A model generated the notes under the pieces. The model saw nothing but the letters and a program-made list of their open reading frames with translations, did not search any database and was not told the DNA's origin. From Ruficoccus sp. ZRK36 (GTDB lineage: Bacteria; Verrucomicrobiota; Verrucomicrobiia; Opitutales; Cerasicoccaceae), in NCBI RefSeq assembly GCF_019603315.1, contig NZ_CP080649.1, positions 883,501-947,500 on the forward strand: a stretch of 64,000 nucleotides of DNA. The letters run 5' to 3'. Positions 11,252 through 64,000 of this stretch are shown piece by piece. Position numbers and translations under genes: made by a program. The stretch's first letter is position 1. Each line of letters starts with the position of its first letter.

Positions 11252-11355
11252 CGGGTTACACCCGCTGGCAATCATGGGGCTTTGCCCCATCGCTCGCTAA
11301 GGCTCGCTGCCCCTCTGTAGGGGCAGCACATTAGCATTGTCTGTGCGCTACGCGC
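11250..11355. repeat. Mini-hairpin cluster at the atpC stop, includes dispersed 40-bp element copy 1
   Basis: Hairpins: 11250-11266 (AGCGGGT-TAC-ACCCGCT, over the stop codon), 11274-11290 (ATGGGGC-TTT-GCCCCAT), 11306-11327 (9-bp stem, CTGT loop) and 11345-11355. The segment 11274-11313, read on the minus strand, matches 46104-46142 and 47519-47558 almost base for base. No U-run follows, so this is not a standard intrinsic terminator. Confidence 0.75.
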
Positions 11356-14094: not shown

Positions 14095-14128
14095 GGATGC
14101 GCAGCATCCAGGGTGTCGGGCATGCCCG
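14095..14128. repeat. Mini-hairpins between terminator and scpB
   Basis: GGATGC-GCA-GCATCC at 14095-14109 and CGGGCATGCCCG at 14117-14128, directly before the scpB stop (minus strand) at 14130. Same style as the other stop-codon clusters. Confidence 0.6.
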
Positions 14129-15044: not shown

Positions 15045-15104
15045 GGCGCGCAGCGCCGATGGGGGGCAGAGCCCCCATCAAACGGATCAAACGCCGAGCG
15101 TTTG
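15045..15104. repeat. Mini-hairpin cluster abutting the gnd stop
   Basis: GGCGC-GCA-GCGCC at 15045-15057, an ATGGGG...CCCCAT hairpin at 15059-15078, and CAAACGC-CGA-GCGTTTG at 15088-15104. The last ends one base before the gnd stop codon (15105). A regular terminator lies further downstream, so these hairpins have some other role or none. Confidence 0.65.
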
Positions 15105-16607
15105 CTAGGACTTGATCTGCGGACGCTTCGGGTCGGGCCAGTCGATGTGGAAGAACTCGCCGCGCGGCTTGTCGGTGCGCTCGTAGGTGTGCGCGCCGAA
15201 GAAGTCACGCTGAGCCTGGAGGAGGTTCTGCGGGAGATTCGCGGTGCGGTACCCGTCGAAGTAGCTCAGGGCGCTGCCGAAGCACGGGACGCTGACCCCA
15301 TGAGTGACGGCGGTCGCGACGACCTTGCGCCAGTTGCCTTCCAGCTTGACCACGGTTTCCTTGAAGTACGGGTCGAGCAGAAGGTTCGCCAGGTCGGACT
15401 TGGTGGCAAAGGCGTCGGTGATCTTTTGCAGGAAGCCAGCACGGATGATACAGCCACCGCGCCAGATCTGGGCGATTTCACCGTAGTTGAGCACCCAACC
15501 GAACTCCTCGGCCGCGGCACGCATGAGCTGGAAGCCCTGTGCGTAGGAGCAGATCTTCGAGCAGTAAAGGGCGTCGTGGATGGCCTGGATGAGCGCGTCC
15601 TTGTCGCCTTCGTACTTGGCGGCGGGGGCGGCGATTTCCTTGGAGGCGGCCACGCGCTCTTCCTTGATCGCGCTCAGGCAGCGGGCGAAAACAGCCTCGG
15701 CCACAGTCGGAGCGGGCACGCCCAGGTCCAGGGCGCTGATCGAGGTCCACTTACCGGTGCCCTTCTGGCCAGCGGTATCGAGGACGATGTCCACAAAGGC
15801 GGCGCCGGTCTCAGGATCGTGCTGGGCGAGGACTTCGCCGGTGATCTCGATCAGGAAGGAGTCGAGGATGCCGGTGTTCCACTTCTTGAAAATCTCGGCC
15901 ATTTCCGGGGCGGAGAGGCCCAGAAGGTTACGCATGAGGTCGTAGGCTTCGCAGATCATCTGCATGTCGCCGTACTCGATGCCGTTGTGGACCATCTTCA
16001 CGTAGTGGCCAGCGCCGTTCTCACCGATGTAGGCGGTGCAGGGCACGCCACCTTCGACGGGCTTGCCGGGGGCGGCACCTTCGAGGGGCTTGCCGGTCTT
16101 GGCGTCGACCTTGGCGGAAACGGCTTCCCAAATCGGCTTCAGGTAGTCCCAGGCCTCGGGCGTACCGCCGGGCATGAGGGAGGGGCCGAAGCGCGCACCT
16201 TCTTCACCGCCGGAGACGCCGGAGCCGATGAAGCGGAAGCCCTTGGCGGTCAGATCCTTCTCGCGGCGGATGGTGTCGTTCCAGTTGGCGTTACCACCGT
16301 CGATGATGATGTCGCCCTCTTCGAGGAGCGGGACGAGGCCGTCAATAACGGCGTCCGTGCCGCGACCGGCCTGGACGAGGATGATAATCTTGCGCGGGCG
16401 CTTGAGGCTGGCGACAAAGTCTTTCAGCTCGGCACAACCGACGAGGCCACCGGGGGTATCCGGATGCTTGGCCACAAACTCCTCCATCTTGGAGGTCGTC
16501 CGGTTGTAGACAGAGATCTTAAAGCCGTGGTCGGCGATGTTGAGAGCGAGGTTTTGGCCCATGACGGCGAGGCCGACGAGACCGATATCGGAGATTGCTT
16601 CTGGCAT
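15105..16607 (-). CDS. gnd: 6-phosphogluconate dehydrogenase, decarboxylating, NADP-type (long form)
   Basis: 500 residues, full length for the long homodimeric form. Oxidises and decarboxylates 6-phosphogluconate to ribulose-5-phosphate. Rossmann start [16 protein letters not shown], then VYNRTTSK, the Asn-Arg-Thr...Lys set that in this family binds the 2'-phosphate of NADP. Substrate motifs [30 protein letters not shown], the catalytic-lysine region [19 protein letters not shown] and [14 protein letters not shown] near the end are all present. It is transcribed in the same direction as, and downstream of, a second, shorter paralogue. Confidence 0.95.
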
Positions 16608-45096: not shown

Positions 45097-45981
45097 ATGT
45101 CCGATCCGACCAACGAAAAACCGGATAACCTCTGGAAAGACACCGCCGAGGCGGGTCGCATCTATATCCTGCCGAACCTTTTCACGGCGGGTAATCTCTT
45201 TTTCGGCTTCCTCGCCATCATCTGGTGTATCCGTGGTAAATACGCCTCCCCCGATGAGGTTCAGTCGGCACGCTTTTTCACCGAGGCAGTCTTTTTCATC
45301 CTCGGTGCGGGCTTCTGTGATGCCCTCGACGGGCGGGTGGCCCGCCTCGGCGGGCGCGAATCCCTCTTCGGCAAAGAGTTCGACTCGATCGCCGATGTGG
45401 TCTCCTTCGGGATGGCTCCGGCGCTGATGATGTTTTTCCTGATTCTCGACCCAACGAATGGCTACCCCTTCTTCCGCCAGATCGGCTGGCTTATCGGCTT
45501 TATTTACCTGCTGTGCGCAGGGGTGCGCCTGGCGCGCTTCAACGTATTGACGAACCCCTACATCCCGCGCGGGGACATCGGTGCCGCAAATGCCCGGGCG
45601 GACGATTTCCTGGGCCTGCCCGCGCCCATGGCTGCGGGTACGGTGGCCTCGCTCGTGCTGGTGATTCTGAACTTTGACCTGAAGGCTTTTACGCTGCTGT
45701 TGCCGCCGCTCATGCTGCTGATTGCCTGGCTCATGATCAGCCTCATCCCGTACCCGTCGTTTAAGCATGTGGGCTGGCAGACACATATGCAGGCCCGGCA
45801 CTTCATCGGGTTGATCATTATGGCCGCGCTCATGTTCCAGTTCTGGCGCTTCTCTTTCGCGGTCGGCTTCCTGCTGTATATCTTCTGGGGGCTGGGAAAG
45901 AGCATCCAGTACCGCCGCCAGCAAAAGAAAGCTGCCGCTGCCGAAACACCTACCGAGCCGACCAGTCCACACGAAGAGTAG
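45097..45981 (+). CDS. pssA: CDP-diacylglycerol--serine O-phosphatidyltransferase
   Basis: 294 residues, integral membrane. The CDP-alcohol phosphotransferase motif DG..AR........G...D...D is present in full (DGRVAR, FGKEFDSIAD) near residue 80. About seven helices. Makes phosphatidylserine, the precursor of phosphatidylethanolamine; no psd gene nearby. The C-terminal tail is polar and Thr/Glu rich. Confidence 0.93.
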   Translation: MSDPTNEKPDNLWKDTAEAGRIYILPNLFTAGNLFFGFLAIIWCIRGKYASPDEVQSARFFTEAVFFILGAGFCDALDGRVARLGGRESLFGKEFDSIADVVSFGMAPALMMFFLILDPTNGYPFFRQIGWLIGFIYLLCAGVRLARFNVLTNPYIPRGDIGAANARADDFLGLPAPMAAGTVASLVLVILNFDLKAFTLLLPPLMLLIAWLMISLIPYPSFKHVGWQTHMQARHFIGLIIMAALMFQFWRFSFAVGFLLYIFWGLGKSIQYRRQQKKAAAAETPTEPTSPHEE

Positions 45982-46030
45982 GATCCCCTGCGGCAATGGT
46001 TCGGAGGTTGTTGGAGCCCCGTATTGACAG

Positions 46031-46181
46031 CGAGTGCAACTCGTGGGGTAGGCACGCAGTGCCGTAGGGGCAGCGCCCCTCAATGTTCAGTGCGATTACG
46101 CACGGGGCAGCGAACGCAGTGAGCGATGGGGCAGAGCCCCATTGAGATGCGAAGCATCTCGGGTGAAGGGCTATGCCCTTC
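46031..46181. repeat. Array of seven mini-hairpins, with dispersed 40-bp element copy 2
   Basis: In order: CGAGT-GCA-ACTCG (46031-46043), GGCAC-GCA-GTGCC (46051-46063), AGGGGC-AGC-GCCCCT (46066-46080), GTGCG-ATTA-CGCAC (46090-46103), ATGGGGC-AGA-GCCCCAT (46126-46142), GAGATGC-GAA-GCATCTC (46144-46160), GAAGGGC-TAT-GCCCTTC (46165-46181). The last covers the stop codon of the NTF2-like gene. The repeated element is 46104-46142. Confidence 0.85.
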
Positions 46182-46560
46182 CGTACCAGTTGTGGAAGGC
46201 GATGATTTTGCCCGCCTCGTCAAAGTGCAGGTGCAGGGCGTTGGCCATGTCAAAGGTCGTCGCGTCGCTGTTCTTTCCGGCCACGCGCACAATGCAGGCT
46301 ACAGCCCGCCCCGGTACGTCCACGACGCGGTCGGTGTAGCTGGCTTCGAAGTGATCGACCAAGTCGAAAAAGCGCCGGTATTCGCCCTCGATGGCAGCAG
46401 GAGTCGAGGCGGCTTTGGAGTTCCACGCGCTCGCATCATCCTCCATCCCGTGTACGCGGTAGAGGTGTTCCCCGGCAAAGCAGTCGGCCACGGCCTGGGC
46501 GTCGCGGTTATTCACGGCGTGCCCATAGGCATTCAGCAGGGCGTTGGGATCGATGCTCAT
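46171..46560 (-). CDS. NTF2-like (SnoaL-type) protein
   Basis: 129 residues. Small alpha+beta fold: LLNAYGHAVNNRDAQAVADCFAGE at the start and LHLHFDEAGKIIAFHNWYGRA at the end are typical of the SnoaL/NTF2 superfamily, which includes isomerases, cyclases and binding proteins. No clear catalytic residues to assign a reaction. Its last codons form one arm of a mini-hairpin. Confidence 0.75.
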   Translation of the reverse strand: MSIDPNALLNAYGHAVNNRDAQAVADCFAGEHLYRVHGMEDDASAWNSKAASTPAAIEGEYRRFFDLVDHFEASYTDRVVDVPGRAVACIVRVAGKNSDATTFDMANALHLHFDEAGKIIAFHNWYGRA

Positions 46561-47361: not shown

Positions 47362-47598
47362 GCGGGCTTGCGCCGCCCGCACCCGCGGCAGGCAAAGCCT
47401 GCACTTTCGATGCTGCGCATCGTGTCATCGATTACTTAAACCAGCGTCGCTGGTTTAAGTAATCGATGAGCAAAGCATCAAAACGGGACCAGCATCATAA
47501 TACCGGGTGCCAGTTGTCGGGGCAGCGAACGCAGTGAACGATGGGGCGGTAGCCCCATGAAAGCTGCTCCAGCCGGAGTGTCCAGTGCGGTCACGCAC
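47362..47598. repeat. Mini-hairpin cluster at the proA stop, with a 21-bp perfect stem and element copy 3
   Basis: GCGGGC/GCCCGC (47362-47380), GCAGGC-AAA-GCCTGC (47388-47402), CGATGC-TGC-GCATCG (47408-47422), a 21-bp perfect stem with loop GTC (47425-47469), the dispersed element (47519-47558) with ATGGGGC/GCCCCAT, and GTGCG-GTCA-CGCAC (47585-47598), whose loop contains the proA stop codon. No T run follows the long stem. Confidence 0.85.
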
Positions 47599-48874
47599 CT
47601 CTGCACTGGCCGGTGCCGTGGACCTGGTACTTGTAGGTGCACAGTTCGCGCAGGCCCATGGGGCCGCGGGCGTGCAGGCGGTCGGTGGAGATGCCGATCT
47701 CCGCGCCCAGCCCGAACTCGTTACCGTCGGTGAAGCGGGTCGAGGCATTGTGGTAGATCGTGGACGAGTCCACCCCGGCAAAGAAGGCCTTGGCGGCGGC
47801 TTCGCTGTCGGTGATGATCGCCTCGGAGTGCCCGGAGCCGTACTGGTTGATGTCGGCCACGGCCTCTTCGAGCGTGTCGACCACCTTGATGGAAATAATC
47901 GTGTCGAGGTACTCGGTGCGGAAGTCCTCTTCGGTCGCCGGGACGGTCGGGATACCGGTGTCCTTTAAAATCGCGGCAGCTTTTTCCTCCACGCGCAGCT
48001 CGACATCCTTTTTGCGCAGGGCGGCGGCGATCTTCGGGAGCAGGGCGGGGGCGGCGTCTTTGTGGATAAAGAGGTTCTCGGCCGCATTACAGACGCTGAC
48101 GCGCTGGGTCTTGGCGTTGACGGTGACGGAAACGGCCATCTCGGGGTCGGCGTCCTTGTCCACGTAGACTGAGCAGATCCCGTCGTAGTGCTTGATGACG
48201 GGGATGCGGCTGTTGTCGGTGATAAAGCGGATGAGCCCCTCGCCGCCGCGGGGGATGATGCAGTGCACGTATTCGTTGAGCTTGAGCAGCTCGTTGAGGG
48301 CGTAGCGGTCCGTGGTCGGGATGATCTGCACGGCGTGCTCGGGCAGTTCGCACTTTTTCAGGGTCTGGCTGATGAGCTCGGCCAGGGCCATGTTCGAGTG
48401 GATCGCTTCCTTGCCGCCGCGCAGGATGCAGGCGTTACCGCTTTTGAGGCAGAGGACGGCGCAGTCGATGGTGACGTTCGGGCGCGACTCGTAGATGATG
48501 CCAATGACGCCGATGGGCACGCGGACCTTGCGGATGTCCAGCCCGTTCGGGCGCAGGGTGCGCTCGATCTCCTCGCCCACGGGGTCGGGGAGGGCGGCGA
48601 CTTCGCGGACCTCGTCAGCCATGGATTTGATACGCTCGGAGGTAAAGGTCAGCCGTTCAATCATCGGCGTGGGCAGCTCCAGAGCGCGTGCCGTGGCCAG
48701 GTCGCGGGCATTCTCGGTCATGAGCATGACCTCGTTTTGCTCGATCAGGTCGGCCAGGGTGTTGAGGGCACGGTTTTTCTGCTCGCTGGTGAGCATGGCG
48801 GTCTGCAGGGCCGCCTGTCGGGCCTGCCGGGCGATGCCTTCTACCAGTTCGTGGATGCTGTCCTTCTCCTTCAT
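47591..48874 (-). CDS. proA: Glutamate-5-semialdehyde dehydrogenase (gamma-glutamyl phosphate reductase)
   Basis: 427 residues from the ATG at 48874. Second step of proline synthesis, NADPH-dependent. [52 protein letters not shown] and the catalytic-Cys region [15 protein letters not shown] are standard; the end reads [27 protein letters not shown]. No proB next to it. Confidence 0.95.
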
Positions 48875-61996: not shown

Positions 61997-62094
61997 CCAT
62001 GGCTCCACCTTAGTGGGGCCATCAATGCCACCGGGTGCAACCTGGCCATGGCTCTACCAGGGTGGGGCCATTAATGCTACCGGGTGCAACCCGG
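61997..62094. repeat. 49-bp tandem duplication at the transporter stop
   Basis: Units 61997-62045 and 62046-62094 are alike at most positions. Each contains a stem formed by TGGC.CCA.../GTGGGGCCA and a CGGGT-GCA-ACC(C)G hairpin, perfect in unit 2 (62081-62093). The array ends two bases before the stop codon of the minus-strand transporter gene. Confidence 0.85.
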
Positions 62095-62095
62095 T

Positions 62096-63703
62096 TCAGC
62101 CGATCAGCTTGAGCAAGAACTTGGCCAGCAGGGCCATCATGATAACGGCCACCGGATAGACTGTCGCGTAGCTGACGATAGGTGCCTGCTGATGGGTTTT
62201 TGAGACGATGGCCCCGAGCGCGGGGGTACTGGTCATCCCGCCGCAGATCCCGCCCAGGCTCTGGGCGACGGTCAGCTTCATGATCTTGCGGGCGGTGATA
62301 TAGCCCACGATCATCGGCACGATACTGATCAGCGCACCGACCAGAAAGATCTCCGCACCCTGCGTCTGGATGGCTGAGCCCATGGAGGCTCCGCCTTTGA
62401 TCCCGGCATCGGCGAGGAAGAATACCAGCCCCATCTCCTGGAGGAGGACGCGCGTCGGCCGCGGGATGAAGCCGACCACACCGCCGACACGTCCGAAGTG
62501 TCCCAGCAGGAGCGCGACGAGCAACGGGCCACCGGCTAGTCCGAGCGAAAAGGTATCCCCCCAGGGCATGGGGATGGTCAGCTTGCCCAGGGCGACCCCC
62601 AGCGCCAGCCCGATAGCGAGCGAGGCGAGACTGGTTTCGGAAAAAGCCTGCGTGTGGTGACCGACTTCCTTGGCAAAGGCGGCGAGCTTGTCCTGAGCAC
62701 CGACGGTGGTGAGGATGTCGCCCTTTTCCAGGCGGGTCTTCGCATCCGGGACAAAGGTAAACTCCAGGCGGTTGATGCGGGTCACGACCACGCCGTGGTT
62801 ACGCAGCGGATCGATGTCGCTCAGCGTTTTGCCGATGAGCTCCTTTTTCGTCACGACGAACTGGCTGCGCTCGTTATCGGCATCGAGCACGATGTTCTGC
62901 TCGCTCACCCGGCCGATCAGCTCGGTGGCGATTTTGACAGCCTTGGCGTCACCCACGAGCAGCAGGAGCTGGTCAGGCTGGAAAACGTCCTCGTAGCTGA
63001 CCGGTTCGAGTCGGTTGTTACGCCAGATGCGTGAGACCTGGCAGCCGCCCAGGTCCGCCAGTGAGCTGTCCCCGAGGCGCTTGCCGAAAAGGTTCTCGTT
63101 GCGCACTTCGACCAGCTTGCGCTCGATGACAATCGAGGACGCGCCCTTGGTTTCCGGCGTGTCTTCCTCGATCTTGAGCTTGAGGAGCTTCGGGATGAGC
63201 TGGACGAAAAGCACGACCCCGATGACCCCAAAGGGGTAGGCGATCCCGTAGCCGACGACTACATCAGTCGCTCCCGGCCCGGCACCTTCGCTGGCCGCAG
63301 CCAGTGCGGGGGTGCTCGTCATGGACCCGGCAAAAGCGCCGACGGCCATGGCCGCATCGACGTGGAAAAGCTTGGCCAGCCCCCAAGTGGTTAAGGCCCC
63401 GGCTCCGACGACGACCAGCGCCAGCTTGGCCAGCTGGCTGCCCTCTCGCTTGAGCGCCCCGAAGAACCGATTCCCCGCGCTGATGCCGACGCAGTACACA
63501 AAGAGCGCCAGCCCGATGCTGCCGATACCGGCGGGCACGGTGCAGCCAAAATGCCCGGCCAGCAGCGCCACGAATATGACGGCGGAGGAGCCCAGGGTGA
63601 TGCCCTTGATCTGGATGCTGCCCAGGGCGAGTCCGATGCCGATCAGCCCGAAGAGGGTCAGCAGCGGATTGCTCAGGATGTTTTGGAAAAAGTCGCTCGG
63701 CAT
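62096..63703 (-). CDS. AspT/YidE/YbjL-type antiporter with two TrkA_C domains
   Basis: 535 residues from the ATG at 63703. Two homologous membrane halves of about five helices each (AspT/YidE/YbjL duplication domain): GSMTSTPALAAASEGAG in the first and GGMTSTPALGAIVSK in the second are the paired signature loops. Between them lie two cytosolic RCK-C (TrkA_C) ligand-binding domains (about 205-375). The family holds aspartate:alanine antiporters and uncharacterised YidE/YbjL proteins; substrate unknown. Confidence 0.88.
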   Translation of the reverse strand: MPSDFFQNILSNPLLTLFGLIGIGLALGSIQIKGITLGSSAVIFVALLAGHFGCTVPAGIGSIGLALFVYCVGISAGNRFFGALKREGSQLAKLALVVVGAGALTTWGLAKLFHVDAAMAVGAFAGSMTSTPALAAASEGAGPGATDVVVGYGIAYPFGVIGVVLFVQLIPKLLKLKIEEDTPETKGASSIVIERKLVEVRNENLFGKRLGDSSLADLGGCQVSRIWRNNRLEPVSYEDVFQPDQLLLLVGDAKAVKIATELIGRVSEQNIVLDADNERSQFVVTKKELIGKTLSDIDPLRNHGVVVTRINRLEFTFVPDAKTRLEKGDILTTVGAQDKLAAFAKEVGHHTQAFSETSLASLAIGLALGVALGKLTIPMPWGDTFSLGLAGGPLLVALLLGHFGRVGGVVGFIPRPTRVLLQEMGLVFFLADAGIKGGASMGSAIQTQGAEIFLVGALISIVPMIVGYITARKIMKLTVAQSLGGICGGMTSTPALGAIVSKTHQQAPIVSYATVYPVAVIMMALLAKFLLKLIG

Positions 63704-64000
63704 GGTCAGTAAATAGTGGTGGAGGCCCGGAAAGCCGGTCTCCAGCCTGTCCCCGGTTTTATCCGCGGGCACGCCGTGCGACCGACATCCCTAGCGCGAA
63801 GATGTCTGGTGATTCGGGCATTCTGGCTTCCGAGACTGAGGTCCGGTCACAGTTGCGCGTCAGCTCCTGGTTCTCACAGGATTTCCCCGAAGGTGTTCGC
63901 TATTGGAAATAGCGTGCGAGATCGTGGGAGCGAGGCGAAACTGAGTCAAGCCGTGTTTATGAATGGATTACCTGGTATGAGAGGGATTAATCGTTTGGTG
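63704..64000. other. Gap at the right edge
   Basis: About 300 bases with no gene seen. It contains CGCTATT-GGA-AATAGCG at 63898-63914, another three-base-loop hairpin. A gene may start beyond the window. Confidence 0.5.

Follow-up and report, generated by a model that had tools for sequence, protein, structure and literature searches.

The small hairpins crowded between two convergent genes at positions 46031-46181 of the window (the whole 64,000-nucleotide stretch of Ruficoccus sp. ZRK36 DNA that was analysed, positions 883501-947500 of a 3.75-Mb contig) make up a single copy of a palindromic repeat family which is mosaic in structure, dispersed over the genome and specific to its genus. In the explanation which we consider likely, though by no means certain, these hairpins are modules of intergenic elements whose arms would be kept identical by template switching and whose spread would be due to a mover that cannot be recognised here. 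The scores of copies of a 21-bp stem, nearly all perfect and many of them different, amount to a natural record of DNA hairpin evolution. Whether compensatory changes arise from selection or from template switching has long been debated, and these copies make the question testable in a bacterium whose own terminators provide an internal RNA control. Furthermore, the family represents a REP-like expansion in genomes which harbour no RAYT gene.

The array at 46031-46181 and its repeat family

The array, to which no strand is assigned, comprises eight small stems, seven of them perfect: H1 (46031-46043, CGAGT-GCA-ACTCG), H2 (46051-46063, GGCAC-GCA-GTGCC), H3 (46066-46080, AGGGGC-AGC-GCCCCT), H4 (46090-46103, GTGCG-ATTA-CGCAC), H6 (46126-46142, ATGGGGC-AGA-GCCCCAT), H7 (46144-46160, GAGATGC-GAA-GCATCTC) and H8 (46165-46181, GAAGGGC-TAT-GCCCTTC). 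The remaining one, H5 (46110-46124, GC[GA]AC-GCA-GT[GA]GC), contains tandem G.A mismatches below a GCA loop. An earlier note, made from the sequence alone, had described seven stems, six of them with three-base loops, as well as similar units elsewhere in the window. All of these exist, yet H5 had been overlooked, and what was taken for separate hairpins are in fact copies of composite repeats which are homologous at many loci. The array is flanked on its left by a pssA-like gene (45097-45981, plus strand; CDP-alcohol phosphatidyltransferase) and on its right by a SnoaL-like gene (46171-46560, minus strand; slightly under the Pfam cut-off), the stop codon of which (46171-46173) lies, as already noticed, within H8. 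When 46026-46185 is folded as DNA, each of its strands is much more stable than shuffled sequences (z -5.4 and -5.3). In relatives of H5 the tandem G.A mismatches persist despite covarying neighbour pairs (GCGAAC-GCA-GTGAGC, GCGACT-GCA-AGGAGC), and mismatches of this type reside on the same strand as the GNA loops.

A blastn search with the array locus reveals 44 similar places in the genome, and word counts resolve several modules, designated F1 to F4. Of 934 sampled spacers, 81 contain 20 or more bases of such high-copy words. F2, which forms the core of the array, occurs in two subtypes. The subtype a unit (46051-46080, plus strand; GGCAC-GCA-GTGCC-GTA-GGGGC-AGC-GCCCC) is found repeatedly in a 1.26-Mb sample of this genome, while the subtype b core (46103-46142, minus strand), which reads GGGGCAGCGAACGCAGTGAGCGATGGGGCAGAGCCCCAT on the plus strand and is sense for the minus-strand gene, is found in many places with 95-100% identity and is the part of the array with most repeats. 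F1 is represented in the window by a 127-bp copy on the plus strand (47364-47490), identified by blastn and a covariance model, with three hairpins including the apical one (47425-47469, no strand assigned) whose perfect 21-bp stem, closed by a GTC loop, is backed by the pairing statistics of the family. This copy is faced by a further F2 subtype b copy (47519-47558, minus strand) which is sense for a proA-like gene (47591-48874, minus strand). F3 has the form GTCCTGCACCTGTGATCC-TTC-GGATCACTGATGGCATTTTC-AGGA-GAAAATGCCATG, and F4 consists of the outer half of F1 joined to a different terminal hairpin. Elsewhere in the window, F2-type clusters are located at 11252-11329 (plus strand; CGGGT-TAC-ACCCG, ATGGGGC-TTT-GCCCCAT and neighbours) and, together with CAAACGC-CGA-GCGTTTG, at 15045-15104, where the cluster abuts the predicted stop of a minus-strand gene (15105-16607). 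Single mini-hairpins are present at 14095-14109 (GGATGC-GCA-GCATCC, with convergent genes on either side), at 62079-62095 (ACCGGGT-GCA-ACCCGGT, immediately adjoining the predicted stop of a gene on the minus strand, 62096-63772) and at 63898-63914 (CGCTATT-GGA-AATAGCG). Except for the first cluster, no strand is assigned to any of these.

Three observations concern the make-up of the elements. Several elements contain the module TGCTGGTCCAGCCGGACC or a close variant of it: in six (L129, L143, L144, L147, L187, L189) it lies at the F4 end, in L121 in the left part of F1. Hairpins thus seem to have been inserted or exchanged within elements already in place. In columns 51-65 and 121-126 of the F1 alignment A1, GATGC can pair either with a near GCATC or with a distant one past the big stem, and GGGGC and two GCCCC are arranged in the same way in F2; both thus have two alternative folds built in. 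Finally, positions 1443-1928 of L160, from the congener G002, contain two F1 copies 358 bp apart whose repeated flanks are identical while their apical stems and loops differ; this may stem from the assembly or reflect something that happened recently, and deserves a check.

Relatives of PssA pointed to the Opitutales and to three congeners, namely "Verrucomicrobiota bacterium JB024" (G001), G002 and G003 (the metagenome-assembled genome "5_bin.45"). JB024, whose PssA is 88% identical to that of ZRK36, is the nearest named genome found. Among the matches listed, the covariance model yields about 45 good F1 copies in ZRK36 and roughly as many in JB024, with about 25 in G002 and about 11 in G003. 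Of the 54 genomes searched, 50 are Opitutales outside the genus; one of these (G005) provides three weak matches, the other 49 none. Rfam gave no match above the gathering score, and neither a plasmid nor a phage match to the family was found, so that carriage by either was dismissed. At the orthologous pssA site the full array is seen in ZRK36 only, with two hairpins in JB024, one recognisable hairpin in G002 and none in G003. H8 has the same sequence in JB024 and is missing in G003. H7 corresponds to GGATGC-GAA-GCATCC in JB024 and to GGATGC-GCA-GCATCC in G002, so that between congeners both arms have changed together at one and the same site. Neither JB024 nor G003 has F1 at the place orthologous to the window copy.

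Hairpin excess and position at gene ends

Hairpin statistics were collected from a 1.26-Mb sample, about one third of the genome, using our own hexamer-based gene calls. Predicted intergenic DNA of this sample contains 269 hairpins with a stem of at least 6 bp and a loop of three bases, compared to 48.6 in dinucleotide shuffles (5.5-fold), whereas in coding DNA such hairpins are not in excess. The earlier note would have had to be abandoned if their frequency were no higher than in shuffles, which is clearly not the case. The excess of perfect stems of 6 bp or more with three-base loops is most pronounced in convergent spacers (3.74 per kb vs 0.25 shuffled, 15-fold), followed by tandem (1.20 vs 0.27 per kb, 4.4-fold) and divergent spacers (0.54 vs 0.21 per kb, 2.6-fold). 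It is absent from the convergent spacers of one genome of a sister genus of the same family (0.36 vs 0.22 per kb). Shuffles, coding DNA and sister genus together rule out a chance origin of the hairpins. The proposed preference for GNA loops, which are known to be stable in single-stranded DNA, is borne out as well: GNA/TNC loops account for 96 of 242 (40%), and still for 31 of 100 once identical inner stems are merged, while their share is 12.4% in shuffled sequence and 11.9% among hairpins of coding DNA. GNA loops lie on the antisense strand in 66 cases and on the sense strand in 28.

The elements are tightly placed and oriented with respect to genes. F1 starts at a median of 23 nt past a same-strand stop codon (79 of 96 copies), F1 and F2 words are strongly sense-biased (all repeated words: 2052 sense vs 481), and TGATGGGGCT has a fixed orientation to the upstream gene (19:0). 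The F1 copy of the window is an exception, as it resides in a tandem spacer, on the strand that encodes neither of its neighbour genes. The stretch preceding the first F1 hairpin varies in length and is rich in T (41% over the 12 nt upstream of F1; 96 copies, sense strand). Between convergent genes, half-elements are often paired head to head with a short spacer in the middle, which in F1-F4 doublets is recognisable and common to the members of a subfamily. The ends of F1 and F4 have GGGGC..GCCCC - CCCGCGGCAGGC..GCCTGCACTTTCG in common in inverted orientation, as terminal inverted repeats. About 12 F1 loci are common to different species, some with opposite orientation. The latter holds for four orthologous spacers (L112/L150, L145/L022, L176/L036, and L138 compared to ZRK36 near C1:1342270) and may reflect either inversion in place or independent insertion. 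In the one pair tested, L145/L022, the spacers show an identity of 0.81, no higher than that to a non-orthologous copy (0.82), and inversion of whole elements in place is therefore not established. By hand count, and with the origin assumed at the contig start, about 28 of the roughly 45 copies in ZRK36 run with and about 17 against replication, which renders a strict preference for the lagging strand unlikely.

A T-run terminator is present in only 2 of 31 hairpin-rich convergent spacers, compared to 41 of 135 others (Fisher p 0.006). Since 29 of the 31 do without one, the hairpins are, in agreement with the earlier note, no standard terminators; neither the T-run after the hairpin nor the tolerance of G-U on the RNA strand that characterises intrinsic terminators was found. 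As most of these spacers have no T-run terminator, the hairpins may accidentally act as a barrier to transcription or decay, possibly as a side effect by which the stems have not been shaped.

Stem pairing, loop inversion and rival explanations

The 21-bp apical stems of the 96 F1 copies vary widely in sequence, yet 1962 of 1988 positions (98.7%) form Watson-Crick pairs, the rest being 3 G-U, 7 A-C and 16 others. T-run terminators of the same genome, in contrast, show 32 G-U and no A-C, the expected mark of RNA (Fisher p 4e-6 for the difference). Compared to the column consensus, the F1 stems exhibit 421 two-arm but only 19 one-arm changes, counted as alignment cells rather than independent events. 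With 244 transversions and 177 transitions, most two-arm changes cannot have passed through G-U. Already the first 17 copies, gathered by sequence words alone, display a covariation of 0.349 (0.106 shuffled, at most 0.059 slid). The apical loop is nearly free in sequence, with 31 different loops. Among copies with near-identical arms, one loop is the reverse complement of the other 13 times, while 4.2 such cases are expected (0 of 2000 shuffles); a second count gives 19 vs 7.5, with about eight separate inversions behind the 19 pairs. Template switching between inverted repeats is known to homogenise arms and to invert the spacer (PMC8604942), and it can give rise to two-base stem changes without G-U intermediates (PMC8794818). 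From strict pairing, two-arm changes and flipped loops we infer that the stems bear the marks of DNA template switching rather than of selection on RNA, which sustains the view of the earlier note that evolution proceeds at the DNA level. Strong selection for a perfect single-stranded DNA hairpin could be another cause of the scarcity of one-arm changes.

The proposed mechanism would set out from half-elements lying sense-oriented close behind stop codons, often as facing pairs between convergent genes. Where a strand becomes single and folds into a hairpin with a three-base loop, the replication fork would use one arm as template for the other, now and then flipping the loop, as the substitution patterns suggest. 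The spread would be due to some enzyme or process that cannot be recognised in this genome, and the mover may since have been lost or replaced. Copies would survive mainly at gene ends, presumably persisting there because insertion does least harm. Template switching itself does not explain the tight position behind stop codons.

This position, with sense orientation at about 100 nt or less from stop codons, together with the scarcity of T-run terminators in hairpin-rich convergent spacers, would fit structures acting at mRNA 3' ends, either as terminators without U-tract or as stabilisers. We regard this as quite improbable, as F1 stems show no G-U excess while genuine terminators of the same genome do, most GNA loops are found on the antisense strand, and the family, confined to one genus, is not matched in Rfam. 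Less improbable, though still unlikely, is that the stems are perfect by selection since a recombinase or transposase binding single-stranded DNA, other than Y1, recognises the folded strand as in IS200/IS605, REPINs or attC. The conserved parts between hairpins (CTGCACTTTCGATGC ... GCATCAAAACTGG), the inverted F1-F4 doublets with their common ends, the opposite orientations at orthologous spacers and the stable GNA loops are in line with such recognition. The nearly free apical loop is hardly so, and template switching is the simpler source of loop inversion and transversions.

Recognition by a RAYT or IS200-like enzyme, as the earlier note had suggested, is not supported in this genome: Y1_Tnp (PF01797), which covers RAYT and IS200 transposases, has no hit in ZRK36, G002 or G003, two of the three repeat-carrying congeners, while control genomes were positive. 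JB024 contains four such genes. Moreover, widely spaced halves enclose housekeeping-type genes only and no transposase in the 1.26-Mb sample, which disfavours an autonomous parent element and also weighs, as do the missing Y1_Tnp genes and the failure to match any plasmid or phage, against an enzyme recognising the folded strand. No target duplication was seen by eye at the compared sites. That a classical GTAG REP/REPIN family, once mobilised by RAYT, was orphaned by loss of the RAYT gene appears rather unlikely. Y1_Tnp is indeed widespread in the Opitutales (31 of 54 genomes searched), GTA(G) precedes hairpins in F2 subtype a, Opitutus terrae has been described as rich in GTAG REPs, and REP ends are known to supply stop codons (PMC3733652). 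However, among 916 hairpin strands only about 10-12 per offset are preceded by GTAG, which is confined to a small subset (F2 subtype a) and absent from F1, so that the tag is not general and identity with GTAG REPs was rejected; in addition, Y1_Tnp is wholly missing from three of the four carrier genomes. We would assign a similarly low probability to a class of mobile palindromes which moves as a folded single strand by means of an enzyme unrelated to RAYT/IS200, hairpin replication during movement keeping the arms identical and flipping the loops.

Comparison with known systems

In form and place the family is comparable to REP/REPIN elements and MITEs, but it is RAYT-less. Like REPs, REPINs and BIMEs (PMC3116915, PMC3733652), it consists of high-copy short extragenic palindromes with loops of 2-4 bases and complementary stem variants, dispersed between genes and enriched at gene ends and in convergent spacers, often as inverted doublets and in some cases supplying the stop codon. 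Unlike them, its half-elements are composite, each with several different hairpins, and G-T pairs, frequent in REP stems (PMC3733652), are almost absent from F1 stems. As both a RAYT gene in this genome and a constant terminal GTAG (or CGTC) tag are missing, we refrain from classifying the family among the REPs.

With MITEs such as NEMIS/Correia and ERIC the family has in common that it is non-coding, 100-350 bp long and present or absent at orthologous sites, and the F1-F4 doublets resemble them by their common inverted ends. These ends, however, are themselves hairpins, halves of different families combine, and neither a target duplication (sites compared by eye) nor a parent transposon (1.26-Mb sample) was found. 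Integron attC sites are folded single-strand hairpins with variable tips which lie behind genes in fixed orientation, features that recur here. In contrast to attC, the family is scattered genome-wide and common to convergent genes, and the GTTRRRY/RYYYAAC boxes (R/L boxes of attC) are not recognisable in F1 by eye.

In its evolution F1 resembles template-switch palindromes (PMC8794818, PMC8604942), with perfect arms, simultaneous two-arm changes with few one-arm intermediates, and inversion of the loop or spacer. The coding palindromes of Nematomorpha, grouped here with them, are likewise reported to have perfect arms (PMC6649704). Compared to these published cases, the record presented by F1 extends over scores of copies, all belonging to a single repeat family dispersed in bacterial genomes.
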